Shown: positions 158-35,385 of the stretch, piece after piece | How positions within the stretch are numbered: the stretch's first letter is position 1 | Layout: each line of letters starts with the position of its first letter | Assembly (NCBI RefSeq): GCF_964355755.1 | Contig: NC_092674.1 | Location: 2,485,001 to 2,549,000 of the forward strand | Direction: 5' to 3' | Origin: Antedon mediterranea | Taxonomy: Eukaryota; Echinodermata; Crinoidea; Comatulida; Antedonidae | DNA length: 64,000 nt | Notes under the pieces: model-generated | What the model was told of the DNA's origin: nothing | Seen by the model: only the letters and a program-made list of their open reading frames with translations | The model's database searches: none | Position numbers and translations under genes: made by a program

Positions 158-3100
158 CAAAAGATTTGTTAGAGATAGATTGGAGTAGTCTTAAAGATTA
201 CAAAACGGAGAACAAGACCAACCAACCTGGGTCTGCACTAAGTCGCTTCACACCAGGTAGCATTCTTTCTCGTATCGGAGTGTCAAGAACACTGGCAGGG
301 CCTAGCCTCATGAAAAGAGTTTTAGAAGCTTGTAAAGAGGCAACACCAGAAGGAGGTAACGAATGAATGGCAATTCTATGTACAAACACCTGAATAGTGT
401 TCAGTGACTCTATTCTGTATCAAAGTGAATGATACTTAGTTTATAAGCACAATAAATTATAAAATAGTTTATATTTCTGGTTAATCGTTATGAATTTTTT
501 GTAGGGGAAGTTCCGACATTTGATTGTGCCTTGGGTGCTTTGAATGCTATGGCTCAACAGAAAGCTCGTCAAAGAAAGAAACTTCTTTCAGATGTTGGTC
601 CTTGTCGTAGAGCTCTATCGGCCAGATGGGACTTGCAGATAAGAAAACAACTCAGAAAATCTAGGGTAAGTTATACGTCATTATAAACAAAGAATGTGAT
701 GCAATTGGCAGTTTGATGTCCGTTTTTCTGATGGTTTTGAAGTTGGTGTTTATGGTGGTTCTGAAGCTGATGGTGGTGTTGATTTTGAAGTTGGTGTTTA
801 TAGTGGTTCTGATGATGGTGGTAATGGTTTTGAAGTTGGTGTTTATGGTGGTGATGGTGTTGGTTGTGGTGTTGGTTGTTTTTAGTCGCGTGGAAGCGAC
901 TCTATAGTTCACTGTCGGTCCGGTATCACTATGCGTTTTATCGCTTTCTGACCTTATCTTGATATCAGTTTCATCTAGCTAAGTCAATTTTTCACAGTAT
1001 ATTCCTTATGGCCAGGAATTGATGTGGTTATGTTTTCACGGTGCGCAATAAAAAATTACGCGGTCTACGCACGATTTAACGAAATCACGTTTGTAATCAT
1101 ATCTTCACAACCATGAATCACAATTAAATAAAATTTGGTACTCATAAATTTCAGGGCATAAATCATCATATGGCAATACAATTACGTGCGTAGTGCATGT
1201 AATGCATGCGTATGCGCGCTTAAAATTTTCAAAATTTATTTTCGACGAAATAAGAGTACGTTTCAGGCAATTTTAAGCGTTTACAAAATTGCCATGAGTG
1301 CGCAGATTTTTGCGCGCGCACTGCGCGTTAAATGTTGTTACGCACTCTTTTTGCCCGATTTCTGTTTTCTTGACTTACTTTTCAACTCGAAATTACGTTA
1401 TACGAGCACGTCAAAAGTGACCGGCTACGCACGTGTAAATTAAAAAAATATAACTTTTTAAACATTTCAACATTTTTAAACATGTTCAGTAATTTCGGTC
1501 AGTTGGTAGGTTGGTCGGTCGGTCGGTAAACACTAAGCACGCGACTGCAGCCATCTATATGGCCTTGTTAAGTTGGTGTTTATGGTGGTTCTGATGATGG
1601 TGGTGGTTGTGGTGTTGGTTTTGAAGTTGGTGTTTATGGTGGTTCTGATGATGGTGGTGTTGGTTTTAAAGTTGGTGGTTCTGATGATGGTGGTTGTGGT
1701 GTTGGTTTTGAAGTTGATGTTTATGGTGGTTCTGATGATGGTGGTGGTTGTTGTGTTGGTTTTGAAGTTGATGTTTATGGTGGTTCTGATGATGGTGGTG
1801 GTTGTGGTGTTGGTTTTGAAGTTGGTGTTTATGGTGGTTCTGATGATGATGGTGGTTGTGGTGTTGGTTTTGAAGTTGATGTTTATGGTGGTTCTGATGA
1901 TGGTGGTGGTTGTTGTGTTGGTTTTGAAGTTGGTGTTTATGGTGGTTCTGATGATGATGGTGGTTGTGGTGTTGGTTTTGAAGTTGATGTTTATGGTGGT
2001 TCTGATGATGGTAGTGGTTGTTGTGTTGATTTTAAAGTTGATGTTTGTGGTTCTGATGATGGTGGTGGTTGTTGTGTTGGTTTTGAAGTTGGTGTTTATG
2101 GTGGTTCTGATGATGGTGGTGTTGGTTTTAAAGTTGTTGTTTCTGGTGGTTCTGATGATGATGGTGGTTGTGGTGTTGGTTTTGAAGTTGATGTTTATGG
2201 TGGTTCTGATGATGGTAGTGGTTGTTGTGTTGATTTTGAAGTTGATGTTTGTGGTTCTGATGATGGTGGTGGTTGTTGTGTTGGTTTTGAAGTTGGTGTT
2301 TATGGTGGTTCTGATGATGGTGGTGTTGGTTTTAAAGTTGGTGTTTATGGTGGTTCTGATGATGATGGTGGTTGTGGTGTTGGTTTTGAAGTTGATCTTA
2401 TGGTGGTTCTGATGATGGTAGTGGTTGTTGTGTTGATTTTGAAGTTGATGTTTGTGGTTCTGATGATGGTGGTGGTGGTTGTTGTGTTGGTTTTGAAGTT
2501 GGTGTTTATGGTGGTTCTGATGATGGTGGTGTTGGTTTTAAAGTTGGTGTTTATGGTGGTTCTGATGATGATGATGGTGGTTGTGGTGTTGGTTTTGAAG
2601 TTGATGTTTATGGTGGTTCTGATGATGGTGGTGGTTGTGGTGTTGGTTTTGAAGTTGGTGTTTATGGTGGTTCTGATGATGATGGTGGTTGTGGTGTTGG
2701 TTTTGAAGTTGATGTTTATGGTGGTTCTGATGATGGTGGTGGTTGTTGTGTTGGTTTTGAAGTTGGTGTTTATGGTGGTTCTGATGATGATGGTGGTTGT
2801 GGTGTTGGTTTTGAAGTTGATGTTTATGGTGGTTCTGATGATGGTAGTGGTTGTTGTGTTGATTTTGAAGTTGATGTTTGTGGTTCTGATGATGGTGGTG
2901 GTTGTTGTGTTGGTTTTGAAGTTGGTGTTTATGGTGGTTCTGATGATGGTGGTGTTGGTTTTAAAGTTGGTGTTTATGGTGGTTCTGATGATGATGGTGG
3001 TTGTGGTGTTGATTTTGAAGTTGATGTTTATGGTGGTTCTGATGATGGTAGTAGTTGTTGTGTTGATTTTGAAGTTGATGTGTGTGGTTCTGATTATGGT

Positions 3101-3750
3101 GGTGGTTGTTGTGTTGGTTTTGAAGTTGGTGTTTATGGTGGTTCTGATGATGATGGTGGTGGTGGTGGTGTTGGTTTTATGGTGTTGGTACTACCACACT
3201 ATTCTAGTGTGCCATAATCCAAGTGACTATTATATACGCAATCAGCAGTGCATGCAATTTATTATTTTCTCTCTGAATGGTTGATGTAATACTAGAGTAA
3301 TAAATAAATTTGACACACACCTTCAAGCGTGCTGGTATTTCTTACCAGACCAAATATTGTCTCTGTCTAATTAACCATGGTCATAGAAAATACAGATTTT
3401 AATGCACAAAATCAACCGTGTGCCTATAGAAACATTTTAATTCTCTCTATTTATGAATTTTTGTTTTATATTTTATATTTATCTGTTTTTTATCGTACTA
3501 ATATCTGCCAATCTTTAAGATGAATTTCTAGTGTTATTTTATTATGATAATGGACAAGTAAAGCATTTCAGTATTGAGTATAGAACATTAATGAGAATGT
3601 CACATTGTCACATTTTCATTGTAGGATGTAAATGTGTTCAACACTTCGCCAGTGGATCCTGATTTATACAAACATAGTTTACAGCTTTTTAATTCTAAAG
3701 ACTTCACACCTCAAGTGTTACCATCGACGCACGTGTTAATTGAAACGTAG
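158..3750 (+). CDS. 3' part of an unrecognised gene (three terminal exons)
   Basis: Three exons join in phase: 158-355, 505-665 and 3625-3750. Acceptors end in AG at 157, 504 and 3624; donors are GTAAC at 356 and GTAAG at 666; the stop TAG is at 3748-3750. Phases are 1 then 0 and no stop interrupts. The encoded C-terminal ~160 residues are polar and basic: a Ser/Gly/Arg stretch (around SALSRFTPGSILSRIG), a helix-like segment (LMKRVLEACKEA), then QQKARQRKKLL and WDLQIRKQLRKS, ending HVLIET. I see no known domain or membrane segment. A nuclear role is possible from the basic content but is only inference. The 5' part lies outside the window. The last intron (666-3624) contains a large minisatellite and a repeat insertion. 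The last exon has a damaged copy at 9747-10204. Confidence 0.75.
719..880 (+). repeat. GT-rich minisatellite, left fragment
   Basis: Degenerate copies of the same GT-rich unit that fills 1571-3186. The array is interrupted by the repeat element at 881-1570, so this is the left end of one original array, in the last intron of the upstream gene. Confidence 0.8.
881..1570 (+). mobile_element. Dispersed repeat with short inverted ends (AGTCGCGTG family), copy 1
   Basis: Begins TTTAGTCGCGTGGAAGCGAC and ends with CACGCGACT followed by GGCCTTGTTA. The whole body is closely matched by 16701-17566. Short inverted ends (AGTCGCGTG and CACGCGACT) suggest a non-autonomous DNA element, but no coding capacity and no clear target duplication are seen. 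A short GGTC microsatellite lies near the right end (about 1510-1527). This copy sits inside the minisatellite and splits it. Confidence 0.65.
1571..3186 (+). repeat. GT-rich minisatellite with higher-order repeats
   Basis: About 30 copies of a unit that is mostly 54 bp (variants of 42, 48, 51 and 57 bp) built from the words TTTTGAAGTTGGTG, TATGGTGGTTCTGATGATGG and TGGTTGTGGTGTTGG. A composite of four unit types (roughly 200 bp) recurs near 1990, 2190, 2390, 2820 and 3020. The plus strand is almost free of C. Most length changes are multiples of three, so two plus-strand frames stay open for long stretches, but a 2-base deletion near 2396 shifts them. The array lies in an intron with good splice sites on both sides, so I call it non-coding. 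Confidence 0.85.
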
Positions 3751-3943
3751 TGCGCGATGTCAAAGGTCATATACTGTACTGGGATTGTGTCGAGAGTCAT
3801 AGGCTGATCTGAAGGGAGAGAGAGACTGCCGGCATGTACAGCAACATCTGAAAACAACTGAATCGGGGATGAAACATTACAGATTCTTCTTTTTATTAAA
3901 TGAATATTTTAAGGCAAATAAGTGAAATAAAATCACTTCTTAA

Positions 3944-4050
3944 AGCATTGTTTACACTATCAAACTTTATGTGACTAATGTGATGTGCCCATGTACATGA
4001 TGATGTCATATCACTAACATTTTTGGGAAAATTATAAAATAGACAGAGCT
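3944..4050. mobile_element. AGCTCTGTC-family MITE, diverged copy
   Basis: Ends resemble the family TIR (AGCTCTGTCTACACTATCA): AGCATTGTTTACACTATCA on the left and AGACAGAGCT on the right. The core carries the family words GTGATGTGCCCAT and GATGTCATATCACTA. It is duplicated at 10398-10504, so the insertion is older than the segmental duplication. Confidence 0.7.
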
Positions 4051-4608
4051 TTCAATTAATATGCTTCCCTTTCGTTTCATTTTATTAAAAATTCATATAA
4101 AAATTCTGCAAAATGTCAACATATCACTTGAGTGTTAAATAAATCATTTTAAACAATTACATTATCTAATGTAAATGTGTACATGCGTTATCTCAAAAAG
4201 ATAATACATCTATGTGTAGAGTGAGACGTCAATTAAAACAGTCTAGTTACACTTGTGTTTATTTGTGTACCCAGTGTCCCATAAAAAAGAAAGAAAAACA
4301 AGCCTGTTGATTGTTTTGTTGCCAGACAAGTTAAATTATGCAAACACCAAAAGCTTGTTTCCCACTACGACGTAGCGCAAGGATTACTTAATAACCTTCA
4401 CCAAATAAGTTTTTAACTTATCTTCCAAAGAATCGGAATTCTGTAATTCAAATAATAATAATATATTAAATATAAATAATATAATAATTGATAAAATGCA
4501 CTTATCAACTGTAGGCCTACTATTACTTATATAATAATTAACACTCCTAAATTGAAACGGACTAAAATTATACATTACTGCAGTAGTAAGTAGTTACTGC
4601 AGTGATCC

Positions 4609-6552
4609 TTAACTTAAAGGAAATGCAATTGGAATTTTGTAATTAAATAACATAAAATCGTACTTAAATTTATGGTAGATATCGGATACAAGAGAAGTGG
4701 GTATTTTGGCGTATGCTTTCTCGAGTTTGCTTGAGCTATTGGTGAAGTGCTTCCCGGTCGAATGTGGAAATGTTATGTTTGCTTTCGAACGCGTTAAAAT
4801 GTATTTCGATTCGTTTTCTATATCCTCAAAATGACCTATGACGTCATAGTGGATATCGCACGGATAGCAAACTCTGTGCATTTCCCGCCAATGATCGTTA
4901 AATCTAGTTATCATACCATCTATAACAAAATTTAAAAAATCTTCAAATTGTACTGTTTTACTTTCGTCTTGTTTGTTTGATCTAAACCGTGACCATATTG
5001 TATTGTATATTCCTTGAAACTGTCCGTGGTTCTTCTGTTCTGGGTTAAATTTATCGTTGTAAGCAGACAATAATCGTGAGAACGGATTCCTTACAAACAT
5101 AAACGTTGTGTATTTTTTCAAGATTTCGTTTTGTTTCTTTACTGGAAAACTACTCAAATATTTGACTTGTTTCTTCCACGCGGCACTCACTTGCGTATGT
5201 GTCATCTTCATTACATCGTTGTACTTCGTCTTTCCAGCTAAAACCAGCATAATTCTAGCCCAGCTGTCCGTTGCAACTTTTGGTGTCTGGCAATAGACCA
5301 TCTTGTGTTTTTCATTCACTAACAGTATTGGTTTAGCAGTCATTTTAGTTATTTTGTTTTGGTGGAGCTGGCACATCTGTTTTATGTGTTTGTTGCGCTC
5401 TACGTGTAAAGCTGAATATCGTGCCATGAATTCAGCTTCGGTTTCCAGAAAATTAATCTAGAATAGGAAATTGAATTTATTTGAAGAAAAAAAAAGGATA
5501 GATTCGGTTCTAAAAGTTTTATTATTATAATATACAATAAGCTTAACCAGACCGATACGACTTTGTTTAAGCACAATCGATCGTCAGGAAATATGTTTCT
5601 TCTTTTCATAAGGAAAAAACTATAGAAATCCAAAGAACAATACTGTACATATTATTTAGGAAAATAGATTTTATAGTTGTGACCTGACAATTTAAATCAA
5701 GGCAAGGTCAAAACTCTTCTTTATTTAAAAATTTCCAAAAAGGTCGTTCTACTATCAGTGTAATAATATTATTATTTAAACCAACACTATACATTTTAAA
5801 CTCGAGCTGGCGGCGTTTGTCACGAGAAGTTACAATTATTGTTATCCAAAATTAGAAAACCTAAGAGACGGACACAATTCCAAACCCTTTTTTCTTTGAG
5901 TTTTAAAATATCTGTACTTTTTGAAAAATTGTTCTTTTTACTTTACATTGTTATTCATGATTTTGAATTAAATTAATTATTTCAGTTTCAGATTCAGAAA
6001 TAATCTATGGAATATTAAAAATGTAGACCTGCTTTGTATTTATATAAAATGCACATTTACCTGTTTATTTGAACCATTGTGACTGCTGTTAGTAGTTAGG
6101 CTGGTTGAAAAAGTTGGTCTGATTTCTGTATCATACAAAATAATAAGTTATTTCATTAACGAAAACTATATACACATCTCAACCTCCTAATTGTTGTATA
6201 TTTTAATATTATACAACAAAGTAAGTAGTCTAAAATGAATAAAGTGACATCGGGCCTCGTCGACGACGCTGTCGTCGGATCATGACGCGTTTGAAGGAAT
6301 CGATAATTATATTGGTGACGCTTTTTTAACAAATCTCGAGTGAAATTATTTAATTATCAATATAATCCGAAACAAACATCTTAGTATATAGCCGCCTAAT
6401 AATATAATAATTTTTCGTTATTATTCACCTTTTTTGAAATTTAACGGTTTGTTAACTGCTGTAGATCCCATGTACATGAGGTATATCAAGCCGTACATAA
6501 CTGCACCAATGAAAAAGAGTAGGCATATTCTTCTTCTTTTGATAATCATCAT
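4609..6552 (-). CDS. Carbohydrate sulfotransferase (HNK-1/chondroitin 4-O type), copy A
   Basis: Three coding exons on the minus strand: 6429-6552, 6061-6125 and 4609-5457, phases 1 and 0, total 345 residues. Exon 1 gives a short basic cytosolic tail (KRRR, residues 5-8) and one membrane anchor (about 9-29), the type II topology of Golgi sulfotransferases. Exon 2 is a Ser/Thr/Asn-rich stem. Exon 3 carries the Sulfotransfer_2 fold: 5'-phosphosulfate loop PKVATDSW (about 122-129), 3'-phosphate motif RNPFSRLLSAY (about 186-196), and the family signature W..M..VCYPCDIHYDVIG. Predicted activity is transfer of sulfate from PAPS to a glycan; the acceptor cannot be told from sequence. The ATG at 6552 is the first of two adjacent ATGs. 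It converges with the upstream gene. Confidence 0.88.
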
Positions 6553-8479
6553 CGTCAGGCCTACGCACCTATAATAACAGCAATAATGAGTACTACACTA
6601 TATCAAAGCCATAATGTGGTTTTGGAAAGGTGAGGTGTCGTGTCGGTACCCAGACTTCGTCCTCTTAACCTCTAAACACGGCGTATATTTAAGCATTGAT
6701 TGAAGGCGTACTTAATGTATGTTATTACATTATCTAACATAATGCAAAGGTTATTATTGGACTTCCATGTGTCAGTCAGAGCAAAATGGCAAAAGGTTTC
6801 CTACTTTCAAGGAGTTTTATCTATATTGTTTGACAACTCTTGTAACATGTTGACAGTGCTGATTTTGCCATTTTTCTGGTTGTGTGAAGGTTGTTTTTTT
6901 ACTCAATTATAGTTTTAAACAATCCTGCAGAGAATTGGGTTATTAGCAAAATGCAGTTATACTGATATTTCATATTCAATGTTGGATATCTTTTACAAAA
7001 CTTATAAATATCATAAACTTTTGGTCATTAATCAAGTATTCAGAGTTACCAAAAGTTCAATTAGCGCATCACAAGAAATAAAAAGAGACCAATAGTTAAC
7101 AAATCATGTGAAGACCATGGCACTTTCAAGATAAATAAACTCTTTGGCTCCGTGATAACATTTAGACATTTACATATAAAAAAGGAATGGATTAGATCTT
7201 CGGATCCTTCATTACAGTGGACATGTGCTATCATTGTCCTGTTGCCATTTTGCTATTGAGAGGTAATGTGTTAGAGCGAGCCTTGAATTTTAAACTAATT
7301 GCTGTAAAGTTATTTATTTTTAGGAGATTTTTTTTTTTATCAGGAAGTTCCCTGATTTACAATTAATACACTCCTTTTAAGGGAGGATTTTTTTTATTAC
7401 AGTTTCGTTATATAGTAAGAATCAATTTGCTTAATTGATTATTACAACATTTTTGTCCAGTTAAGAGCCATTTCACATTTGTTGAGAATGTCTTTGATAT
7501 TATACATCCATTTCCATCTTGTTAAGCTCTTTTGGTCTTAACGTATAATAGAAGGCAAGTTAGACATGATCGTTTTTCATTGTTAATAACCGTTCGACAT
7601 AACTAACTTTACTTTATTGTATAACTAACTAACTAACTTTACTGTATATTGATCATATAGTATGCAGGGTAATTTCAACCGATTTTATACTGTTTTCACG
7701 CTAAAAAATAACACGAGTGGGTCGCGCTTAAATCAAAAGTCCGGAAAAACTACGTAGCATTAGTTATAAATTGTTATATTGCTGTAGGCCTACAGGTTAT
7801 TACATTTTGAAAAAAATTGACCTTTCCTAAAAAAAATAGGATAAGTATCAACGAAGTTGTGATCAATATAGTGTGAAAAATGAGTGTTAGAGCAGAGTTC
7901 ACTGTTGCTTTTAAGATAAAATAAATAATGTTACCTTTTTTTTGAGAGAAGTATCAACCTACTGTTTGCGCTGTGATATATTATATGTCGACCTTTACGT
8001 GGCGAACTAAAAACAAACTGTTCATAAAGAATGTTCCGCCTTGATGGAGAAACCCAAAGCATTTACCCAGTAGGCTCGAACAAAGGGTCGGTAGTACTGC
8101 ATTGGGTGTACTAAAACAGGAAAAAGTCTGAAGAATTCGACGACCCTGAGTGTTTTCAAGATGGCCGCGAAATTGATAAAGAGTTAAAATTTCTAACTTG
8201 GTCTATTGACATGTTTCTGCTGCCAGTAGGCCCTACTCTAATGGAATATTTTAGCCAGAAATGCTATTTCTTGCACTTTTTTTATATCTGAGTTGGCTAT
8301 GGTGATAGAGTTGGGCTCTACTGAGAATATACATATTATTAATTTATACATATTTGCTTTAATAAAATATTTTGTTTTAAACAATTTACCATGATATGCT
8401 ATATATTGATAACGACTGACCGTAGATATTTTCATTTCATTTTATTGTTCCACATAAAATAAATAAAAGATCAAGACAA
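6553..8479. other. Non-coding part of duplication unit 1
   Basis: AT-rich and mirrored in unit 2 at 13104-13887 and 18264-20974. A putative acceptor (TTATTATAG, about 6569-6577) just upstream of the first ATG suggests a 5' UTR exon further up, but I cannot place it. Otherwise only homopolymer runs and duplicated spacer are seen. Confidence 0.6.
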
Positions 8480-8890
8480 AAACAAACCTGGTCTTTGTTT
8501 ATGTATGGAATCTCAAATAAGCCAGAAGGGCTTTAAGGCTGAGATTCCAAAAGACATTGTGCATGGTAACGTAAAATTGCTTTCTTAAAAAAAAAAGAAA
8601 AGAAGGCCAAACATATTTAGATGAATTTCAATATAGAAAGGAAAAATTAAGATATAAATTCCATGGAGCAAACTTATTATATCTAATGAATATTATATAT
8701 TATAAATCCAAAGGCAAATTACTGAAAAAATGACAATGCTGTGGGTATCAGTGGCTGGATCTCAATGGAGATAAAAAATAAAAGCGAAAAGCTAAACCAA
8801 AACGAGAAGTAAAACAGCCAGAAAAGTTAGCAGAGCTTTCGGGCAACACTAGCCCTTCATCAGTGCATATATTTTTTTACAAAAAGTAAG
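8480..8890 (-). mobile_element. Probable Penelope-like element terminal fragment with hammerhead-like core, copy 1
   Basis: A hairpin (TGGAATCTCA near 8509 pairing with TGAGATTCCA near 8540) is followed about 300 bp later by a minus-strand motif at 8840-8873: CTGATGA, a GGGC/GCCC stem with a 7-base loop, then GAAA and AGC-TCT-GCTA. This is the order CUGAUGA / stem II / GAAA / short stem III / UA of a minimal type I hammerhead ribozyme, as known in Penelope-like retroelements. Stem I pairing is not evident, so it may be decayed. No reverse transcriptase is nearby. The copy at 20975-21380 is in the same place in unit 2. Confidence 0.45.
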
Positions 8891-9230
8891 GTTGGTGATA
8901 ATAAAGTTAAATTATCCCATAAAAAGGTCCGTTAAAAATAAAATAATTTTTCCTGCTATATATTTTACAGAGATACAAGTTTTTGGCACAAATTTTTCAG
9001 AATATACATTTATTTTCGTATAATGAGATTTTGTCACAATTGTGAAGTAAATTGTATTGACCTTTACCTTTAAACATCAGCTAACCTATTAATCTCCTCC
9101 ACACATAATTGTCAAATCAATTCCAGTTCACAAGTAAATACAAAGTAGGCTAAAATTGTTGAATTTACAAAAATGCAGTAAAACGAATTATATCTCTATA
9201 AGTGCAATTATTATACTTTGTTATTTTTTT

Positions 9231-9362
9231 TTTCTGAGTTTTCTAGATCTAGAAAAGTCAGATATCTGAGTTTTCTATCAATCAATTTTATTTAGGAAAA
9301 TAGATTTTAGAGTTGTGACCTGACGATTTAAATCAAGGCAAGGTCAAATATCGTTTTTATTT
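9231..9362. other. Junction between duplication units
   Basis: Contains a small palindromic stretch (TCTAGATCTAGA, then TCAGATATCTGA; related words recur at 22735-22830) followed at 9291-9349 by a copy of the sequence at 5652-5711, which is the 5' region of sulfotransferase copy A. It is therefore a scrambled breakpoint, not simple head-to-tail joining. Confidence 0.6.
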
Positions 9363-9746
9363 ATCAATCAGTAGTGCATACAATTTATTATTTTCTCTCT
9401 GAATGGTTGATGTAATCATTGAGAATTAATTAATTTGACCCACGGTCAAGCGTGCTGGTATTTCTTACCAGACCAAATATTGTCTCTGTATAATCAACCA
9501 TGGTCATGGAAAATACAGATTTTAATGCACAAAATCAAGCGTGTGCCTATAGAAACATTTTACTTCCTTTGTATATGAATTTTTGTTTTATATTTTATAT
9601 TTATCTGTTTTTTATCGTACTAATATCTGCCAATCTTTAAGATGAATTTCTATTGATATTTTATTATGATAATGGACAAGTAAAGCATTTCAGTATTGAG
9701 TATAGAACATTAATGAGAATGTCACATTGTCACATTTTCATTGTAG

Positions 9747-10204
9747 GATGTAAATGTGTTCAACACTTCGCCAGTGGATCCTGATTTATACAAACATAGT
9801 TTACAGCTTTTTAATTCTAAAGACTTAACTACTATGGCGCGCCAAGCTGTCATTTATTCGGAAATAAAGATATCTTAGTTTAAAACTAAGATATCTAAGT
9901 TTAAAACTAAGATATCTCTATTAATAGAGATATCTCTATTTAAAACTATAAGATATCTCTATTAAACTAACAGAGATATCTGTATTAAAAACTAAGATAT
10001 CCCTATTTAAAACTAAGATATCTTAGTTTTTAATAGAGATATCTCTATTAATAGAGATATCTCTATTTAAAACTAAGATACCTCTATTTAAAACTAAGAT
10101 ATCTCTATTAAAAACAAAGATATCTCTATTGCTTGAATAAATGACAGCTTGGCGCGCCATACTTAACACCTCACGTGTTACCATCGACGCAAATTGAAAC
10201 GTAG
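9747..10204 (+). pseudogene. Broken duplicate of the last exon of the upstream gene
   Basis: The acceptor and first 80 or so bases match exon 3625-3750. Sequence is then interrupted by a MITE at 9833-10161, and the remaining part (10162-10204) has lost 6 bp net in the stretch matching CACGTGTTA of the original. No matching upstream exons are present in unit 2. It is a non-functional exon copy. Confidence 0.85.
9833..10161. mobile_element. MITE with 27-bp perfect TIRs containing GGCGCGCC
   Basis: TIRs 9833-9859 and 10135-10161 are exact inverted copies beginning TATGGCGCGCCAAGCTG. CTTAAC occurs on both sides (9824-9829 and 10162-10167), a probable target duplication with three extra bases on the left. 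The interior consists of many AGATATCTCTATT / AAACTAAGATATCT words, so the whole element can fold back. It is absent from unit 1, so it inserted after the duplication. Confidence 0.85.
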
Positions 10205-10397
10205 TGCACGATGTCAAAGGTCATATACTGTAAGTGGGATTGTGTCGAGAGTCATAGGCTGATCTGAGGGGAGAGAGAGACTGCCGCCATGTACAGCAAC
10301 ATCTGAAACAACTGAATCGGGAATGAAACATTACAGATTCTCCTTTTTATTAAATGAATATTTTAAGGCAAATAAGTGAAATAAAATCACTTCTTAA

Positions 10398-10504
10398 AGC
10401 ATTGTTTACACTATCAAAGTTTATGTGACTAATGTGATGTGCCCATGTACATGATGATGTCATATCACTACCATATTTGGGCAAATTATAATATAGACAG
10501 AGCT
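10398..10504. mobile_element. AGCTCTGTC-family MITE, duplicated diverged copy
   Basis: Unit-2 equivalent of 3944-4050, with only scattered substitutions. Confidence 0.7.
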
Positions 10505-11191
10505 TTCAATTAATATGCTTCCCTTTCGTTTCATTTTATTAAAAATTCATATAAAAATTCTGCAAAATGTCAACATATCACTTGAGTGTTAGATAAATCA
10601 TTTTAAACAATATATTATCTAATGTAAATGTGTACATGCGTTATCTCAAAAAGATAATACATCTATGTGTAGAGTAAGACGTCAATTAAAACAGTCTAGT
10701 TACACTTGTGTTTATTTGTGTACCCAGTGTCCCATAAAAAAAAAGAAAAACAAGCCTGTTGATTGTTTTGTTGCCAGACAAGTTAAATTATGCAAACACC
10801 CAAAGCTTGTTTCCCGCTACGACGTAACGCAAGGACGTAAACGCAACGCAAGCGTGTTGACCAATGACAAGCGACAGTTCGAATAATCTATCGCTTGTGA
10901 TTGGTCAAATAACTTATAGATGTCCTTGCGTGTTTCGTCTCTAGTGGGAAGGGTTACTTAATAACCTTCACCATATAAGTTTTTAACTTATCTTCCAAAG
11001 AATTTGAATTCTGTATCAAATAATAATATATTAAATATAAATAATATAATAATTGATAAAATGCACTTACCAACTGTAGGCCTACTATTACTTATATAAT
11101 AATTAACACTCCTAAATTGAAACGGACTAAAATTATACATTACTGCAGTAGTAAAGTTACTGCAGCACAATACTTTGACGTGATTTCTAAC

Positions 11192-13103
11192 TTAACTTAA
11201 TGGAAAGGCAATTGGAATTTTGTAATTAAATAACATAAAATCGTACTTAAATTTATGGTAGATATCGAATATAAGAGAGGCGGGTATATTGGCGTATGCT
11301 TTCTCGAGTTTACCTGAACTATTTGTGAAGTGCTTCCCGGTCGAATGTGGAAATGTTATGTTTGCTTTCGAACGCGTTAAAATGTATTTCGATTCGTTTT
11401 CTATATCCTCAAAATGACCTATGACGTCATAGTGGATATCGCACGGATAGCAAACTCTGTGCATTTCCCGCCAATGACCGTTAAATCTAGTTATCATACC
11501 ATCTATAACAAAATTTAAAAAATCTTCAAATTGTACTGTTTTACTTTCGTCTTGTTTGTTTGATCTAAAACGTGACCATATTGTATCGTATATTCCTTGA
11601 AACTGTCCGTGGTTCTTCTGTTCTGGGTTAAATTTATCGTTGTAAGCAGACAATAATCGTGAGAACGGATTCCTTACGAACATAAACGTTGTGTAATTTT
11701 TCAAGATTTCGTTTTGTTTCTTTACTGGAAAACTACTCAAATATTTGACTTGTTTCTTCCACGCGGCACTCACTTGCGTATGTGTCATCTTCATTACATC
11801 GTTGTACTTCGTCTTTCCAGCTAAAACCAGCATAATTCTAGCCCAGCTGTCCGTTGCAACTTTTGGTGTCTGGCAATAGACCATCTTGTGTTTTTCATTC
11901 ACTAACAGTATTGGTTTAGCGGTCATTTTAGTTATTTTGTTTCGGTGGAGCTGGCACATCTGTTTTATGTGTTTGTTGCGCTCTACGTGTAAAGCTGAAT
12001 ATCGTGCCATGAATTCAGCTTCGGTTTCCAGAAAATTAATCTAGAATAGGAAATTGAATTTATTTGAAGAAAAAAAAAGGATAGATTCGGTTCTAAAAGT
12101 TTTATTATTATAATATACAATAAGCTTAACCAGACCGATACGACTTTGTTTAAGCACAATCGATCGTCAGGAAATATGTTTCTTCTTTTCATAAGGAAAA
12201 AACTATAGAAATCCAAAGAACAATACTGTACATATTATTTAGGAAAATAGATTTTATAGTTGTGACCTGACAATTTAAATCAAGGCAAGGTCAAAACTCT
12301 TCTTTATTTAAAAATTTCCAAAAAGGTCGTTCTACTATCAGTGTAATAATATTATTATTTAAACCAACACTATACATTTTAAACTCGAGCTGGCGGCGTT
12401 TGTCACGAGAAGTTACAATTATTGTTATCCAAAATTAGAAAACCTAAGAGACGGACACAATTCCAAACCCTTTTTTCTTTGAGTTTTAAAATATCTGTAC
12501 TTTTTGAAAAATTGTTCTTTTTACTTTACATTGTTATTCATGATTTTGAATTAAATTAATTATTTCAGTTTCAGATTCAGAAATAATCTATGGAATATTA
12601 AAAATGTAGACCTGCTTTGTATTTATATAAAATGCACATTTACCTGTTTATTTGAACCATTGTGACTGCTGTTAGTAGTTAGGCTGGTTGAAAAAGTTGG
12701 TCTGATTTCTGTATCATACAAAATAATAAGTTATTTCATTAACGAAAACTATATACACATCTCAACCTCCTAATTGTTGTATATTTTAATATTATACAAC
12801 AAAGTAAGTAGTCTAAAATGAATAAAGTGACATCGGGCCTCGTCGACGAATCGATAATTATATTGGTGACGCTTTTTCAACAAATCTCGAGTGAAATTAT
12901 TTAATTATCAATATAATCCGAAACAAACATCTTAGTATATAGCCGCCTAATAATATAATAATTTCTCGTTATTATTCACCTTTTTTGAAATTTAACGGTT
13001 TGTTAACTGCTGTAGATCCCATGTACATGAGGTATGTCAAGCCGTACATAACTGCACCAATGAAAAAGAGTAGGCATATTCTTCTTCTTTTGATAATCAT
13101 CAT
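11192..13103 (-). CDS. Carbohydrate sulfotransferase (HNK-1/chondroitin 4-O type), copy B
   Basis: Paralogue of copy A in duplication unit 2, with the same three-exon structure: 12980-13103, 12644-12708 and 11192-12040, total 345 residues with no disabling change. In the C-terminal 272 residues I count nine substitutions against copy A, including K to N before YTTFMF, N to D in GIYDTIW, D to G before HWREM, and V to I and S to F near the C-terminus. The membrane anchor differs by I to T. Both PAPS-binding motifs are unchanged, so both copies are probably active Golgi type II sulfotransferases. Introns and upstream sequence are also nearly identical, which shows the duplication is recent or has been homogenised. 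Confidence 0.88.
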
Positions 13104-13943
13104 CGTCAGGCCTACGTACCTATAATAACAGCAATAATGAGTACTACACTATATCAAAGCCATAATGTGGTTTTGGAAAGGTGAGGTGTCGTGTAGGTAC
13201 CCAGACTTCGTCCTCTTAACCTCTTAACACGGCGTATATTTAAGCATTGATTGAAGGCGTACTTAATGTATGTTATTACATTATCTAACATAATGCAAAG
13301 GTTATTATTGGACTTCCATGTGTCAGTCAGAGCAAAATGGCAAAAGGTTTCCTACTTTCAAGGAGTTTTATCTATATTGTTTGACAACTCTTGTAACATG
13401 TTGACAGTGCTGATTTTGCCATTTTTCTGGTGTGTGAAGGTTGTTTTTTTACTCAATAGTTTTAAACAATCCTGCAGAGAATTGGGTTATTAGCAAAATG
13501 CAGTTATACTGATATTTCATATTTAATGTTGGATATCTTTTACAAAACTTATAAATATCATAAACTTTTGGTCATTAATGAAGTATTCAGAGTTACCAAA
13601 AGTTCAATTAGCGCATCACAAGAAATAAAAAGAGACCAATAGTTAAACAAATCATGTGAAGACCAAGGCACTTTCAAGATAATAAACTCCTTGGCTCTGA
13701 TAACATTTAGACATTTACATATAAAAAAGGAATGGATTAGATCTTCAGATCCTTTATTACAGTGGACATGTGTGCTATCATTGTCCTGTTGCCATTTTGC
13801 AACTTTGCTATTAAGAGGTAATGTGTTATAGCGAGCCTTGAATTTTAAACTAATTGCTGTAAAGTTATTTATTTCTAGGAGATTTTTGAAATGAGAAAAT
13901 TCAGAACACCGTTAACGTAGTAAATGACGAAAACAATGTTTAA

Positions 13944-14396
13944 TTTGTCGACGAACATGATAGGACACCAGCCCAATTGCAATCAGATACCCTTACACAT
14001 CCAACTAAAGTAGAACCCCTTAACTTGCAACCTTACATTGACTGTGTAGAGAATAACATGGGATTAGCAGCCCCATTCCAAATGAAAGAAGAACAAATTA
14101 AGGAACAAACTAATCTAATTATGACAGCACCTAATGATTCAAATATGACATTAAACCGAGGTAGATTTAAAGCAGGACATTTCCAAGTTTTAGTTTCGTA
14201 TTCTAAACCGACTTCAGCCAAACGTAACACTGATAAAACAAAACACGAATCTAATGATCGCAAATTTTGGTGGAATATCGACAGATATAACGATACAGAT
14301 AAATTGATTAAAGAGATTATTAATGATAAACAGATACCGATAAGTGGATCGCCAAAACGATTCATAAAACGTTTGTATAATGCAACAAGTTACTAA
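13944..14396 (+). CDS. Orphan open frame, possible transposon remnant
   Basis: Open from 13944 (after an in-frame TAA at 13941) to TAA at 14394-14396, about 150 codons with no ATG near the start, so it is either a 3' exon or a 5'-truncated coding region. The product is polar and ends with a lysine/arginine-rich tail (SGSPKRFIKRLYNATSY); FWWNIDRYN is the most distinctive segment. I do not recognise a domain. It lies at the left edge of a block missing from unit 1, so a mobile-element origin is the simplest reading. Confidence 0.35.
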   Translation, partial: FVDEHDRTPAQLQSDTLTHPTKVEPLNLQPYIDCVENNMGLAAPFQMKEEQIKEQTNLIMTAPNDSNMTLNRGRFKAGHFQVLVSYSKPTSAKRNTDKTKHESNDRKFWWNIDRYNDTDKLIKEIINDKQIPISGSPKRFIKRLYNATSY

Positions 14397-16628
14397 TTTA
14401 ATCTGTTTGCAAGAATTTCCTTTAAATTACGACATTTGCTAAATTAATGATAGCATAGTCTACGTATTTGATGAGATTTGTTTAGTAATGATGTGATTTC
14501 AGTTAAAAGAGAATTGAATTTATATTTAAGTATTGATTTGTAACGAGTTTTTTTGATAAAGATTAGTTTTGAATTTTGATGATCGATATATTGAGATATT
14601 GAAAAGAACGACAATCATTTTGTAACAAATATTTTGTTTAACCTTTGAGTCGTTAATCTCAAGCATTAATCAATTGATATACAAGAACAGGAGATTTTCT
14701 TAGTACTTTTAATAGTAATTTTTTTGACATTGAGTACAAAAGTCGAATTTGTCGATTGATTGAAATCGTAATTACCTGTGAATATAAATGCTTAAATCGA
14801 TAAAGTTGTGACGATAATGATATATTGTGGATAAGTTTGTGTCAACGACACACACATTTGTTTCTTTAAAGTTTTAAGTGATTAAGTTTGATATTTTGAT
14901 TTTAGGCTAATCAGCCACAGTTTTCTTGAGTTTTATGTTTTGATTTGATTGATTTATGTTTGAAGGCCATTAGAACGCGATGAGTTGTCGCACGATTTGA
15001 TGTATGTTCAATGTAACATACTATTTTTAAGTTTTGTATTTTTATTTTAACCGATTTATGTTTGATTTACGCGAATTTTATACCAAATTCATTTTTTATT
15101 TTAATTTTTTTTAAGAGAGAGAAGAGAGAGAGTGAAAGTGATAAGGTTACACTTCAGAGTCAATGGTTTTGGCTAACTCAATTTTGCTTATATGTATAAT
15201 AATGTTTTTTTCTTTTATATCTATATATAAATTTACGTAAGGGCAAAATTCGGTAAATCGCGCGTTATCTCTAGAATGTTTACTCGATGGTATATAAAGT
15301 TGGTTAGAATCTCGGTACTGATTTTAACCACCAGATGTAACCCTGTTTACTAATTAAATTGAGTTAGATAATTAGTTATTGACAATTAAAACAAATTTAG
15401 GTTCAACGATTTGCCCCAAATAGGGGTGTTTTTCGATCGTGGTATACACTGTCTAATGGATGTCCGTCTTGAAAAATACCCGAAGACAATAATACGAGGA
15501 TGCTTCGCATTTTCCTATCTCCTCCTACGATAATTGTTTTTAATGGCTGAAAACCGGTTGAACAGCTCGAGTACAGCATCATAATGTTGAAGACAGGCCT
15601 ATTTTCTTTAAAAAATACTATTTTGATAGATTTAATATACGTTTATATAAATGTATTGATTTGCGATGAATGGAACATTCCAATCTCTGTTCCACAAGTG
15701 TCTATTCCCTCAGGCGTCGTAAAGGCAAGTACTGTATACAGTACTCATAACAGAAATTCGATCCATTTTTTTCCCAATCTGTACTGCAGAGGTTGGATAT
15801 AATTTTTTTTTAAACGGATAATGAGCTAGCGTTTTCAGTCGCCGTATATTATGTACAAATCTTTATTATTGCATTTAAACCACCCACATCATCACCCTTC
15901 CCTCACTGCCATGAGTAGCGTTGTAAAGCCAGTAGAGGATAAGCCTATACGGTGCATCATATGCCCTAAACGCAGAACAACTTTGGTGGGTAGGGTAGGA
16001 ACCAACTTAATTATGAATTGGCTCTAAGAAACAATTGAAAACCATTAGGCCTACTAATTAAGTTGAGTTAGATAATTTAATATTATTGACGATTAAATCG
16101 AACTTATGATTTTCCCCGAATAGAGGTGGTTTTCACAAATTGTTTAACATTATATATAAACATACGTCGTAGTGTATCGTTACATGTACTGTACTATTTC
16201 AATCGACTACGACGATGATAGTTTCAACAAAGGATTACATCGCAATGTTTTACTGTGTTTAGTGGTATATTATTTGTAAAACATGAAAACAATTAATATT
16301 TCGTTACAAAATAAAGAATATATTTAAAAATTGTTCCTCTTTGCACCCATCCTCTTCCCCATCCCTCAACCATAATGTTACATACAAAACACAAAATAAG
16401 TTAGTTTAAATCTGACTTTTAAAACAATTGGTCTCATTGTGTGACAAGTTTCTCTTTCGGAAGTAATTCCCAGGGTGCTAATTTTAGTTGAGTACATAAA
16501 TCACAGTGTCTATTTATTCGTTCCTGTAAACGACATGTATTATTGTCCTGCATTATTGTACATTTGAAGTCGCCAGTTTTTTTAACGCTGAAATCATTAT
16601 GTATTCGAGAACCATCTGTGGGCACGAC

Positions 16629-16665
16629 CTAGATGGTACGCGAGCGAAGCGAGCGTACCATCTAG
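16629..16665. repeat. Perfect hairpin
   Basis: Stem CTAGATGGTACGC and its exact complement around an 11-base GA-rich centre (GAGCGAAGCGA). It lies 36 bp before AGTCGCG-family copy 2 and may be the end of another element. Confidence 0.6.
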
Positions 16666-16700
16666 TAACTTTAAATTTTGCATGCCACTATTATAACCAT

Positions 16701-17445
16701 TTTTAGTCGCGTGGAAGCGACTCTATAGTTCACTATGTCGGTCGGTCGGTCTGTCTGTCTGTCTGTCTGTCTGTCGGTCTGTCTGTCGGTCTGTCTGTCG
16801 GTCTGTCTGTCTGTCTGTCTGTCGGTCCGGTATCACTATGCGTTTTATCGCTTTCTGACCTTATATCTTGATATCAGTTTAATCTAGCTAGGTCAATTTT
16901 TCACAGTATATTCCTTATGGCCAGGAATCAATGTGGTTATGTTTTCACGGTGCGCAATAAAAAATTACGCGGTCTACGCACGATTTAACGAAATCACGTT
17001 TGTAATCATATCTTCACAACCATGAATCACAATAAAATAAAATTTGGTACTCATAAATTTCAGGGCATAAAATATCATCATATGGCAATACAATTACGTG
17101 CGTAGCGCATGTAACGCATGCGTACGCGCGCTTAACATTTTCAAAATTTATTTTCGATGAAATAAGAGTACATTTCAGGCAATTTTAAGCGTTTACAAAA
17201 TTGCCATGAGTGCGCATATTTTTGCGCGCGCACTGCGCGTTAAATGTTATTGCGCACTCTTTTTGCCCGATTTCTGTTTTCTTGACTTACTTTTCAACTC
17301 GAAATTACGTTATACGAGCACGTCGAAAGTGACAGGCTACGCACGTGTAAATTAAAAAAAATAAATGTTTTTAAACATTTCAACATTTTTAAACATGTTC
17401 AGTAATTTCGGTCAGTATAGTTCACTATGTCGGTCGGTCGGTCTC

Positions 17446-17479
<34 letters not shown>

Positions 17480-17566
17480 GGTCTGTCTGTCGGTCTGTCG
17501 GTCTGTCTGTCGGTCCGGTATCACTATGCATTGTAGCACGCGACTTAATGGCTGTTGGCCTTGTTA
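16701..17566 (+). mobile_element. AGTCGCGTG-family dispersed repeat, copy 2
   Basis: Matches 881-1570 along its length. It differs mainly by two expanded GTCG/GTCT microsatellites, at 16737-16828 and 17427-17515, where copy 1 has only a few units. The ends AGTCGCGTG and CACGCGAC are kept. Confidence 0.7.
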
Positions 17567-17982
17567 TATTTTAAATAGATTTATTAAAAAAAAGGGAAAC
17601 AGAGGGATGTAATATAATGATATACTTTTATAATTAAGAAATCGACCTTTGTATCAGAATTCAAATAAGTTCACAAACCTGGCCCAGAAAGTCCAGAGGA
17701 GAAATTGTCCAGATGTTTCAAAAGTACATTTAATTAAATCCCAAAAGTAAACAGTTTATTTGACCTCTCTAACTGTTCCCATCGTAAAACAATTAGATAT
17801 TGACAGTTTTAAGCAAAGATTCGACAGGGCCAATTCATCATTGTAACCTCCCCAGATAAGATCAATCACTCCCACTTAAACACCCCTGGATCAACTTAGG
17901 ACCAATCGTTACCCTCACAGATGACGTTGTGACATATGCAAATGAACCGAAGCCAATACCCCCAAGTTTCAGAAGAGCGCAG

Positions 17983-18080
17983 ACACACCTTACAGCCACT
18001 GCACGGAGCACACACCTTACAGCCACCGCACGGAGCACACACCTTACAGCCACCTCACGGAACACATACCTCACAGCCAC
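17983..18080. repeat. 27-bp tandem repeat, about 4 copies
   Basis: Unit words ACACCTTACAGCCAC and CGCACGGAGCAC repeat four times with a few substitutions. Confidence 0.75.
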
Positions 18081-19206
18081 TTCTCCAGAAGCAGACCTAC
18101 ACACTTCACACCTCACCGACAGCATCACTGATTCTCCGTTCCTTATCTATACTTATAGTTGTATATTGTACTGAAGTATTATACTGAATAAACAATATGT
18201 GTTACGACGGTTAAGCGAGTAAGAGTCTTCATTAGTACCTCAACACAACACTATATCACAATAGGAAGAATCAATTTGCATAATTGATTTATTACAACAT
18301 TTGTGTCCAGTTAAGAGCCATTTCACATTTGTTGAGAATAGGGAGGTTTCGTACGACGTATCCGTTTTCGTTATCGTATTCGTAAGATTGCGAAACCTCT
18401 CTAATAACCGTTCCACATAACTAACTTTACTATAGGCCTACTATAATGCAGGGTAATTTCATTTCAACCGATTTTATACTGTTTTCACGCTAAAAAATAT
18501 CACGAGTGGGTCGCGCTTAAATCAAATGTCTGGAAAAACTACGTAACATTAATTATAAATTGTTATATTCCTGTACAGGGTATTAAATTTTAAACAAATT
18601 TGACTTTTCCCGAAAAAAATAGGATAATTATCAGCGAAGTTGTGATCAATATAGTGTGAAAAATGAGTGTTTTTATCGATTTTTGGTGAGCTTTAGAACG
18701 TTTTCAGCACACAATAAGTTTGTAATGGTAGAGTGACTAGAGCAGAGTTCACTGTTGCTTTTAAGATAAAATAAATAATGTTACTTTTCTTTGAGAGAAG
18801 TATCAAAGCCCTGTTTATCTGCAACGAGAGTAAAGTACTGTTGCGCTGTGAAATATTATGTGTCGACCTTTACGTGCTGACCTGAAAACAAACTTTTCAT
18901 AAAGAATTTTCCGCCTTGATGGAGGAACCCAAAGCATTTACACCCAGTATGACAACAACAACAGGGTGGGTAGTACTGCATTGGGTGAACTAAAACAGGA
19001 AAAAGTCTAAAGAATTCGACGACCCTGAGTGTTTTCAAGATGGCCGCAAAATTGATAAAGAGTTAAAATTTCTAACTTGGTCTATTGACATGTTTCTGCT
19101 GCCAGTACTCTAATGAAATATTTTAGCCAGAAATGCTATTTCTTGCACTTTTTTTTTATATCTGAGTTGGCTATGGTGATAGAGTTGGGCTCTACTGAGA
19201 ATATAC

Positions 19207-20637
19207 CCAGGACAAGTGAAATCTGCAATCGATAAGTTAAACATACAAAAAGCAGGACACCCAGAAGATCTACCGATCAGATTAATTAAGGAATTCTCAT
19301 TTGAACTCTCTTATCCATTAGCGGACATTTTTAATTCTTCTTTAAATGAAGGTAATTTTCCTGAACAATGGAAAAAGGCTACTATAATACCAGTTCCTAA
19401 GGTTCCAGATGCTAATAATTGTAATGACCTTCGGCCTATATCCCTAACACCCATTTTTTCTCGGATATTTGAAAGCTTTTTAGCGGAGTGGGTAACTAAT
19501 GATATAAAAGATTCTTTAGATAGTAAGCAATTTGGTTGTCGTAGAGGCTCGTCAACTTCACACTACCTCGTAGACTTGATAAATTCTGTTGTATCTGACC
19601 TGGAGGGGGGTAGCAAATATTTAAACTTATGTGCTGTAGACTTTACGAAGGCTTTCGATCGTGTGGATCATAATGTTGTCATAAATAAATTAATATCCAT
19701 AGGAGTGAGGCCGTCCATTCTTCCTACCGTTTGTAGTTTCCTCTTAAATCGCACATGCAATACCAAAGTTAAGGGAGCCACCTCTTCAAATTCTAATATT
19801 ACTTGTGGGGTGCCCCAGGGCACGAAGTTGGGTCCCCTTCTCTTTTTGGTATTAGTCAATGATGTTGCTGAGGGAACTGACAGGCGGTGGAAATATGTGG
19901 ACGACCTCACTCTTAGTGAAGTAGTTAGAAGTAGTGATAGCCAATTGTTGCAGGACACTTTAAATCAACTTGATGATTGGTGTTTGATAAATAGAGTCCT
20001 CCCCAAGCCATCCAAGTGCAATGTGATGCGTATTTCCTTTCTAAAGTCCGACTGTCCTCCTCCCAGTTTCAATCTAAATGGCCATGATCTTAAATGTGTA
20101 AATCACATTAAACTGCTTGGTGTCACCTTGCAGGATAACCTTAAATGGGAGATGCATATTCATGATATCGTTGCTAAAGCATGTCGACGTTTGTACACTT
20201 TGATTATACTTAAGAAAGCCAAGGCGCCTTCTAAAGATTTACTACAAGTATATACTTGCTATATACGTCCTTTAGTTGAATATGCATGCCCTGTGTGGCA
20301 CAGTTCAATTACGAAAGACCAAACTAAGTCAATAGAAAGAGTTCAAAAAAGAGCTCTACGAATCATTTATGGCATGAACTATGTATCCTACGAGTCTGCT
20401 CTTAAATTGTCAGACCTTCCATCGCTAGTTAACAGAAGAGTCCAACTCTTACTGAAATTTGGTAAAGGAATAATAAAGTCCGATACATTTAGAAGCATTC
20501 TTCCACCTGTTCGTGACATTAGCAGAACCCTGAGGTCTGCGAGTAAGCCTCTACTCAAAATCCCGTTTGGTCGTACAGAAAGATTTAGATCTTCACCAGT
20601 CCCTTTTTTAGTCCGACTCATTAATGATGAATATTGA
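19207..20637 (+). CDS. Reverse transcriptase C-terminal part (non-LTR, CR1/jockey-like group)
   Basis: One frame open from the 5' insertion border to TGA at 20635-20637, about 476 codons with no stop or frameshift. RT motifs in order, numbered from the GTG at 19216: RPISLTPIFSRIFE (about 73-86), DFTKAFDRVDH (142-152), GVPQGTKLGPLLF (198-210), the catalytic YVDD (227-230) and a thumb region with HIKLLGVTL. The C-terminus has the usual RRLYTL / YIRPLVEYACPVWH / QKRALRIIYG segments. The endonuclease and any ORF1 are missing, so the copy is dead, but the intact frame shows it is young. The YVDD box in place of FADD is typical of only some clades; I cannot assign the family securely. Confidence 0.9.
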   Translation, partial: PGQVKSAIDKLNIQKAGHPEDLPIRLIKEFSFELSYPLADIFNSSLNEGNFPEQWKKATIIPVPKVPDANNCNDLRPISLTPIFSRIFESFLAEWVTNDIKDSLDSKQFGCRRGSSTSHYLVDLINSVVSDLEGGSKYLNLCAVDFTKAFDRVDHNVVINKLISIGVRPSILPTVCSFLLNRTCNTKVKGATSSNSNITCGVPQGTKLGPLLFLVLVNDVAEGTDRRWKYVDDLTLSEVVRSSDSQLLQDTLNQLDDWCLINRVLPKPSKCNVMRISFLKSDCPPPSFNLNGHDLKCVNHIKLLGVTLQDNLKWEMHIHDIVAKACRRLYTLIILKKAKAPSKDLLQVYTCYIRPLVEYACPVWHSSITKDQTKSIERVQKRALRIIYGMNYVSYESALKLSDLPSLVNRRVQLLLKFGKGIIKSDTFRSILPPVRDISRTLRSASKPLLKIPFGRTERFRSSPVPFLVRLINDEY

Positions 20638-20835
20638 ATAGGCTGGCACTATTTTAACTTACAGGTGGACCAATTTTAATGTGGTAAATTATTATTATTT
20701 TTTTTTTTAAACTAGTTTTACCTTTTATACATAATGTATTTATATATTTTTATCAAATTTTGTAAAATACTACTTTTCAGCCTTTTGGCTGCCGTTGTAT
20801 TTTGATGTCTTTTTATGAATAAATATACCTAAAAA
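19207..20835 (+). mobile_element. 5'-truncated non-LTR retrotransposon insertion
   Basis: ATAC flanks both sides (19203-19206 and 20836-20839) and occurs once in the empty site of unit 1 (around 8330-8333), which gives exact borders. The insert starts inside the reverse transcriptase and ends with a short 3' UTR containing AATAAA (20819-20824) and an A-run, as expected for target-primed reverse transcription with 5' truncation. Confidence 0.9.
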
Positions 20836-20974
20836 ATACATATTATTAATTTATACATATTTGCTTTAATAAAACATTTTTTTTAAACAATTTACCATGA
20901 TATGCTATATATTGATAACGACTGACCGTAGATATTTTCATTTCATTTTATTTTTCCACATAAAATAAATAAAA

Positions 20975-21380
20975 GATCAAGATAAAAACAAACCTGGTCT
21001 TTGTTTATGTATGGAATCTCAAATAAGCCAGAAGGGCTTTAAGGCTGAGATTCCAAAAGACATTGTGCATGGTAACGTAAAATTGCTTTCTTAAAAAAAA
21101 AGAAAAGAAGACCAAACAGATTTAGATGAATATCAATATAGATAGGAAAAATTAAGATATAAATTCCATGGAGCAAACTTATTATATCTAATGAATATTA
21201 TATATTATAAATCCAAAGGCAAATTACTGAAAAAATGACAATGCTGTGAGTATCAGTGGCTGGATCTCAATGGAGATAAAAAATAAAAGCGAAAAGCTAA
21301 ACCAAAACGAGAAGTAAAACAGCCAGAAAAGTTAGCAGAGCTTTCGGGCAACACTAGCCCTTCATCAGTGCATATATTTT
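20975..21380 (-). mobile_element. Probable Penelope-like fragment with hammerhead-like core, copy 2
   Basis: Unit-2 counterpart of 8480-8890, with the same hairpin and the same CTGATGA..GAAA core unchanged on the minus strand (21336-21369). Confidence 0.45.
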
Positions 21381-21717
21381 TTTACACAAAGTAAGGTTGG
21401 TGATAATAAAGTTAAATTATCCCATAAAATAATTTTTCCTGCTATATATATTTTACAGATATACAAGTTTTTGGCACACATTTTTCAGAATATACATTTA
21501 TTTTCGTATAATGAGATTTTGTCACAATTGTGAAGTAAATTATATTGACCTTTACTTTTAAACATCGTAGCTAACCTATTAATCTCCTCCACACATAATT
21601 GTCAAATCAATTCCCGTTCACAAGTAAATACAAAGTAGGCTAAAATTGTTGAATTTACAAAAATGCAGTAAAACGAATTATATCTCTATAAGTGCAATTA
21701 TTATACTTTGTTATTTC

Positions 21718-22149
21718 TTTTGTCTTGTTTGATTTATGTTAGATAATTATTTATGTATTATGAATTGTAATTATCCAATTTAATATACTGATTTCAATAA
21801 AGATTATTTAAAGGTAAAAAATCGACAATACTGAAATTGAAAATGGTGAATTTAGGCCTTTAGATTGATACCAACTAAAAACAAGCACTCAGAGTGAAAC
21901 AAAGGCCACCTAGTATTTATTCTCTTATAATTAATAAATTAAATAATTTGTACCGATATCAAATATTTTTGGCCCCATGAACTTAGCGTGCAGTGAATTC
22001 TTATACTGTAGTGCTATGCATGTAAGTTGAGTTAGTTGACGCATTCTCCATGAATAGTTGACGTTGGTTTGTGGATGTTGACGCAGTAGCGTCGCTGTTT
22101 CCTTCGATAGATACATGAGGCTTTTTTCGTTTTTCGTCGGCTGTTGGAA
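21718..22149. other. Spacer upstream of dyskerin
   Basis: AT-rich after the end of duplication unit 2. The last ~100 bases become less AT-rich and pyrimidine-rich (CTTTTTTCGTTTTTCG at 22120-22135), consistent with a promoter or 5' UTR. No gene seen. Confidence 0.5.

Positions 22150-22188: not shown

Positions 22189-35385
<13,197 letters not shown>

Follow-up and report, generated by a model that had tools for sequence, protein, structure and literature searches.

Background

Interlocus gene conversion between segmental duplications is described for human duplications in the parts of PMC10172114 drawn on here, and the corresponding sections of PMC4132178 treat gene conversion between segmental duplications as a theoretical model. 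A lineage-specific expansion of carbohydrate sulfotransferases to 30 copies is reported for Lingula in the section of PMC4595640 that concerns this family. Here we analysed a stretch of Antedon mediterranea DNA of 64,000 nucleotides, referred to as the window (G000:C5:2485001-2549000, in a genome of 354 Mb in 18 contigs), which at 2.49 Mb carries a tandem pair of sulfotransferase genes. The doubling of this gene by tandem segmental duplication is real in the assembly. As to its history, the reading to which we give a probability of about three in four is that the two copies had reached a divergence of several per cent and were later partly homogenised by gene conversion. A literature search for sulfotransferases with interlocus gene conversion, tandem duplicates and introns found nothing.

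Architecture of the tandem duplication

Using self-BLAST and alignment, we placed two units on the same strand, head to tail:

3239-9235, plus strand: unit 1, about 6.0 kb (self-alignment)
9236-9364, plus strand: junction filler, 129 bp between the units
9365-21725, plus strand: unit 2, extended to 12.4 kb by insertions (self-alignment)

The unit bounds agree within 8 bases with those of an earlier note on this DNA (3236-9230 and 9363-21717), which had proposed that a sulfotransferase gene was doubled in a recent tandem segmental duplication and had stated that the units match over coding, intronic and spacer DNA. In six aligned blocks, homology was found to cover the exons, both introns and the flanks, with 156 substitutions in 5,592 aligned columns (2.8%). 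Four of the six self-BLAST blocks had E = 0 and the other two 2e-167 and 3e-83, thus chance is ruled out as the source of the similarity. Adjacent direct copies of coding and noncoding DNA on one assembly chromosome support the proposed duplication as the best reading; events of this type are common, and the locus is an unexceptional but easily read example of how gene families grow. The similarity of the units was borne out, though it is not uniform but forms a mosaic along the units. Moreover, the two copies were confirmed, but roughly half of unit 2 has no equivalent in unit 1 and consists mostly of repeats that also occur elsewhere in the genome. Two short stretches of unit 1, at about 7333-7420 and 7495-7580, could not be clearly matched to unit 2.

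Each unit contains one intact three-exon gene on the minus strand, encoding 345 residues with a PF03567 sulfotransferase domain:

6429-6552, minus strand: copy 1 exon 1 (start codon, membrane anchor)
6061-6125, minus strand: copy 1 exon 2 (stem)
4609-5457, minus strand: copy 1 exon 3 (catalytic domain, stop codon)
12980-13103, minus strand: copy 2 exon 1
12644-12708, minus strand: copy 2 exon 2
11192-12040, minus strand: copy 2 exon 3

The filler between the units is composite. About 9233-9277 is a palindromic repeat found genome-wide, the 21-base core of which has 208 forward and 209 reverse exact matches in 354 Mb (reversed control, 0), and 9285-9363 is a copy of part of intron 2, identical at 72 of 79 positions to both 5649-5727 and 12232-12310. 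This piece matches only intron 2 of the two units, and the introns are mutually identical over it, so that the junction copy differs from each at the same number of positions (7/79). The outer flanks (3150-3238 and 21726-22025) showed no match to the junction (9201-9400). The palindromic repeat recurs 1 kb beyond the right end of unit 2, at 22740-22817, a nearness that is notable given the core count of 208 + 209 in 354 Mb; 21726-22739 and 22818-23300 (483 bp) have no other match within the window. Both filler pieces could derive from nearby templates, which would fit template switching. Alternatively, the duplicated block might once have extended to the repeat at 22740-22817, unit 1 then losing 1 kb.

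The junction also bears on whether the units are two alleles of one locus set in tandem by the assembler, their unevenness and insertions being allelic variation. The divergence of 0-11% and the insertions in one copy only would also be expected of two haplotypes in a highly heterozygous animal, an allele without the 1 kb in question could look like the arrangement of the repeats at 9233-9277 and 22740-22817, and false duplications are a known assembly fault according to the relevant part of PMC9516828. However, a simple false duplication predicts a junction like the outer flanks, which it does not resemble, and the junction holds filler of its own, including the intron 2 piece. Moreover, the window contains no N, i.e. 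no assembly gap, and close paralogues of the same family such as L008 and L009, which are inverted and about 90 kb apart, are hard to explain in this way. Given the gap-free window, the flanks unlike the junction and the junction filler, a haplotype artefact seems unlikely.

The 79-bp scrap at 9285-9363 could instead be what is left of the middle one of three former units, the remainder having been deleted and the mosaic reflecting exchange among three copies. The scrap does lie exactly between the units, in the same orientation and equidistant from both introns; nevertheless, an extra duplication and a large deletion would be required, and no further unit fragment was found in the junction, which makes this history distinctly improbable.

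Two observations were made on the repeats of this region. Elsewhere in the genome, the exact core of the palindromic repeat often recurs 600-750 bp apart, as if bounding a larger element, and a minisatellite at 1570-3184 (54/204-bp period, about 29 or 8 copies) ends near the left breakpoint of unit 1.

Uneven divergence between the units

Divergence between the units is 4.3% in 3239-4760, 0.8% in 4761-7319, 10.6% in 7320-8131 and 1.6% in 8132-9231. The longest substitution-free run comprises 934 columns between 5360 and 6327 (exon 3, intron 2 and exon 2), while the longest run in 20,000 shuffles was 499, or 807 after merging neighbouring differences, none of the shuffles reaching 934. In a stricter test we removed coding and repeated DNA, the latter at unit 1 stretches 3439-3595, 3937-4035, 6770-6905, 7014-7332, 8430-8705 and 8676-8885; the unique noncoding DNA alone retained a substitution-free run of 777, reached by 0 of 50,000 shuffles. 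The earlier note had proposed a comparison of introns with exons as a check. Intron 2 shows no difference in 603 columns, whereas 73 events fall in the remaining 2,790 columns of unique noncoding DNA (Fisher p = 1.1e-6), and synonymous divergence (dS) is 0.018 over codons 1-295 (3 changes at 170 sites) versus 0.24 over the last 50 codons, at the end of exon 3 (6 changes at 29.5 sites; Fisher p = 4e-4 with rounded counts). Furthermore, 4604-6264 is without any indel between the units. Two segments thus mark the extremes:

5361-6264 (no strand): putative conversion tract in unit 1, free of substitutions and indels; counterpart at about 11944-12847 in unit 2
7421-8131 (no strand): shared single-copy segment with the highest divergence, 52 substitutions in 487 columns (27 if counted as clustered events)

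The putative tract extends from within exon 3 across intron 2 and exon 2 into intron 1, and single-copy noncoding DNA outside it differs by 1-11% between the units. What was found is what interlocus gene conversion is recognised by, a tract of significantly lower divergence in presumably neutral sequence. We also considered repeat noise as the source of the diverged segments and rejected it for 7634-8131: its only matches in the genome are the two units, and its divergence, being that of a single-copy segment, is not repeat noise. The mosaic of 0% over about 900 bp and 1-11% elsewhere thus argues for both a young-ish duplication and conversion. Where the earlier note had left the choice between young age and gene conversion, both appear to hold, the duplication being moderately young and conversion making its middle look younger.

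The same numbers can be read as a single recent duplication without conversion, in which the mutation rate or constraint differs locally and intron 2 is regulatory. Overall divergence is indeed low (2.8%), several noncoding segments differ by 1-1.5%, and intron 2 could contain an enhancer. Such an account would, however, have to cover zero changes in a 603-bp intron together with exon 2 and part of exon 3, next to a dS of 0.24 at the end of exon 3, and the shuffles never produced such a run. In addition, the stray copy of intron 2 in the junction differs at 7 of 79 positions, though it lies outside its normal context. We regard a history without conversion as very improbable.

Several points nevertheless weigh against duplication followed by conversion. 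The 10.6% of 7320-8131 is inflated by misaligned clusters; for 7634-8100 the value is 5.5% (25 events in 456 columns). Low divergence is also seen in other segments of unique noncoding DNA (4/322 at 6553-7013 and 9/617 at 8132-9231), so that the contrast rests on the zero tract versus the 1-11% background. Hidden constraint on intron 2 might conceivably explain its zero divergence, and the 7/79 of the filler has a 95% range of 3.6-17%, the lower end of which is near the overall divergence. Finally, the evidence for the duplication and for its relative age comes from a single assembly.

Proposed history and its meaning for dating

We propose that a block of about 6 kb, comprising a complete three-exon gene of a Golgi-type sulfotransferase with some 2.7 kb upstream and 1.4 kb downstream of it, was duplicated head to tail. 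The join would have left the 129 bp of filler, a scrap of palindromic repeat plus 79 bp from the gene's own intron 2, as might be expected from a broken or stalled end switching among nearby templates during repair. The copies would then have diverged by several per cent, and repeats including a long interspersed nuclear element (LINE) were presumably inserted into unit 2. Later, as the mosaic suggests, at least one gene conversion between the units, and probably more, erased the differences over about 900 bp and perhaps also lowered them over 4.8-7.3 and 8.1-9.2 kb.

A duplicate can therefore look younger than it really is: intron 2 would date this one to zero, while a date from synonymous sites at the end of exon 3 would be about thirteen times that from the rest of the gene (dS 0.24 versus 0.018, from few sites). 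The junction filler and the one-sided insertions contribute to a set of several clocks, in part independent of each other, on which the dating of duplications and conversion within a growing gene family could be tested, and the stray junction copy of intron 2, if it escaped conversion, could serve as an unconverted clock for the date of the duplication.

Insertions present only in unit 2

Besides an extra stretch of about 113 bp near 10836-10949, unit 2 carries the following insertions:

9827-10164, plus strand: palindromic insertion with inverted repeats at its bounds (GGCGCGCC) and internal tandem copies
13888-18263, plus strand: nested repeats in which an outer element encloses inner ones at about 15215-16678 and 16706-17560
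19207-20832, plus strand: LINE piece with a reverse transcriptase (RVT_1) frame

At the site of the LINE, unit 1 reads straight through (about 8326-8334), and the LINE therefore most likely arrived after the duplication. Among the matches listed elsewhere in the genome, those of the LINE are 95-99% identical, and those of the outer repeat 93-97% in its left part (13890-15220) and mostly 73-92% in its right part (17561-18270). The main matches of the inner repeat 15215-16678 are at 95-99%, shorter ones going down to 72%; the inner stretch 16706-17560 has none among the matches listed. A 0.6-kb repeat within the insertion (16819-17443) is 94.6% identical to 912-1524, to the left of unit 1. Pfam and NCBIfam searches on the open frames of the unit 2 insertions yielded reverse transcriptase alone at meaningful scores.

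The two sulfotransferase genes

Both copies are intact, as the earlier note had it, with open frames, identical splice sites and fitting splice phases. PF03567 (Sulfotransfer_2) was matched with 176.1 and 172.8 bits (cut-off 22) over profile positions 3-252 of 252 in both copies. In the protein part encoded by exon 1, a KRRR run precedes a hydrophobic stretch with a mean hydropathy of 2.2 in copy 1 and 1.9 in copy 2, and an N-terminal signal anchor with type II topology is predicted for both. The proteins differ at 10 residues (I23T, Q96R, K178N, N215D, D251G, S306G, K314N, T317A, V320I and S321F), nine of them in exon 3 and one, I23T, in the anchor exon. The nine substitutions and the anchor change reported earlier are thus correct, but the nine fall in 282 codons and not in 272 residues.

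Exon 3 residues K60, W66, R123, P125, R128 and S131 are invariant across 24 aligned family members, and none of the 10 differences between the copies falls on them; we take these residues to belong to the 5'- and 3'-phosphosulfate (cofactor) binding motifs. Nonsynonymous divergence (dN) is 0.012 and thus below dS (0.047), and the dN/dS of the gene pair, a further check proposed earlier, is about 0.26. Since both genes are intact with dN below dS, the animal probably makes two sulfotransferases that are alike and share their cofactor-binding residues. Adaptive divergence was considered and rejected: dN/dS in the C-terminal 50 codons, which hold 5 of the 10 amino-acid changes, is about 0.18, and together with the overall value this gives no sign of positive selection. 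K178N (codons 5113-5115 and 11696-11698) creates an N-Y-T glycosylation sequon in copy 2, absent from copy 1, beside the second cofactor motif; N is also found at this position in several paralogues.

A structure prediction for the catalytic exon had a predicted local distance difference test score (pLDDT) of 88.5. With this model, none of 187 Foldseek matches reached E<=0.001 (best 0.064), most of the best 50 of the 187 being sulfotransferases. The best VIA-align 2 match had a Z of 8.4 over 174 residues (root-mean-square deviation 3.9), and nearly all among the 50 matches listed are titled sulfotransferase. The predicted structure appears to resemble, though weakly by Foldseek, sulfotransferases dependent on 3'-phosphoadenosine 5'-phosphosulfate (PAPS). 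When the protein and a profile built from 24 relatives were searched by sequence against solved structures, the only hits were weak and unrelated.

The sulfotransferase family in the genome

PF03567 is matched 42 times in the genome, some fragments included, and the family of this gene comprises 30-odd loci, among which there are several close pairs. We built a tree from 33 of the 42 matches, leaving out nine (L007 and eight fragments or weaker matches); the pairwise comparison comprised 34 loci including L007, the L007-L023 row (62 codons) was not used, and L013, L014 and L024 were outside the analysis. In the tree the two units are sisters (100/100), and their next relative, on C10 (92/92), has about 54% identity.

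Other physically close groups lie on C3 (30.56/30.605/30.69 Mb), C1 (25.047/25.070 and 8.754/8.761 Mb) and C5 (1.189/1.195 Mb). In two of five other close pairs compared, C1 8.754/8.761 (dS 0.096) and C5 1.189/1.195 (dS 0.21), the main homologous block is little longer than the last exon, starting 127 and 210 bp before the aligned exon part and ending 9 and 24 bp past the stop, respectively. Most of their flanking DNA is no longer alignable, and the C5 pair has in addition two weak upstream matches, the first being an extra partial exon copy. In the remaining three pairs the blocks extend further, that of L008/L009 444 bp upstream but 52 bp downstream, and those of L009/L023 and L021/L022 on both sides. 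The exon-limited similarity at low dS in the C1 and C5 pairs hints that conversion may have acted there too. That gene conversion acts across the whole expanded subfamily, on an intron-centred tract here and on the last catalytic exon in at least two other pairs, is a possibility that we put forward tentatively, at less than even odds.

Separately, L007 (G000:C5:1762434-1763264) is a family member with an in-frame TAG and probably a pseudogene. The two sulfotransferase pairs with similarity nearly confined to the last exon despite low dS are L017/L018 and L004/L005.

Other features of the window

Outside the duplication, a 20-bp unit (TAGGTTTGCGCAGTTTACGA-like) is repeated about 50 times at 42168-43175; the copies are 97% alike, and the stretch is open in three minus-strand frames. 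At 60894-63363, inverted repeat arms (about 640 bp, 95% alike) surround a tandem array with a 192-bp period (61565-62494), a foldback-like arrangement.

Comparison with known systems

The nearest named group is presumably that of the chondroitin/dermatan 4-O-sulfotransferases and the HNK-1 sulfotransferase (CHST8-14), with which the gene shares the PF03567 domain, the type II anchor and the conserved K...W and R-P..R..S residues. The first motif reads TPKxxxxSWxR in the clade of this gene (with exceptions such as L012, IPKAASTTWSR) and PKVAC(S/T)xWKR in L021, L028, L030, L033 and L038.

As in the converted segmental duplications described in the parts of the human (PMC10172114) and model (PMC4132178) studies used here, a low-divergence tract of kilobase scale lies within older divergence. 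Unlike the human duplications, the present case is one locus in one assembly, in which either unit may have been the donor. What this animal genome shares with that of Lingula, as presented in the family section of PMC4595640, is a sulfotransferase family of some 30 or more genes; the 42 PF03567 matches here include fragments. Unlike in that account of Lingula, part of the expansion is visible here as close physical pairs.

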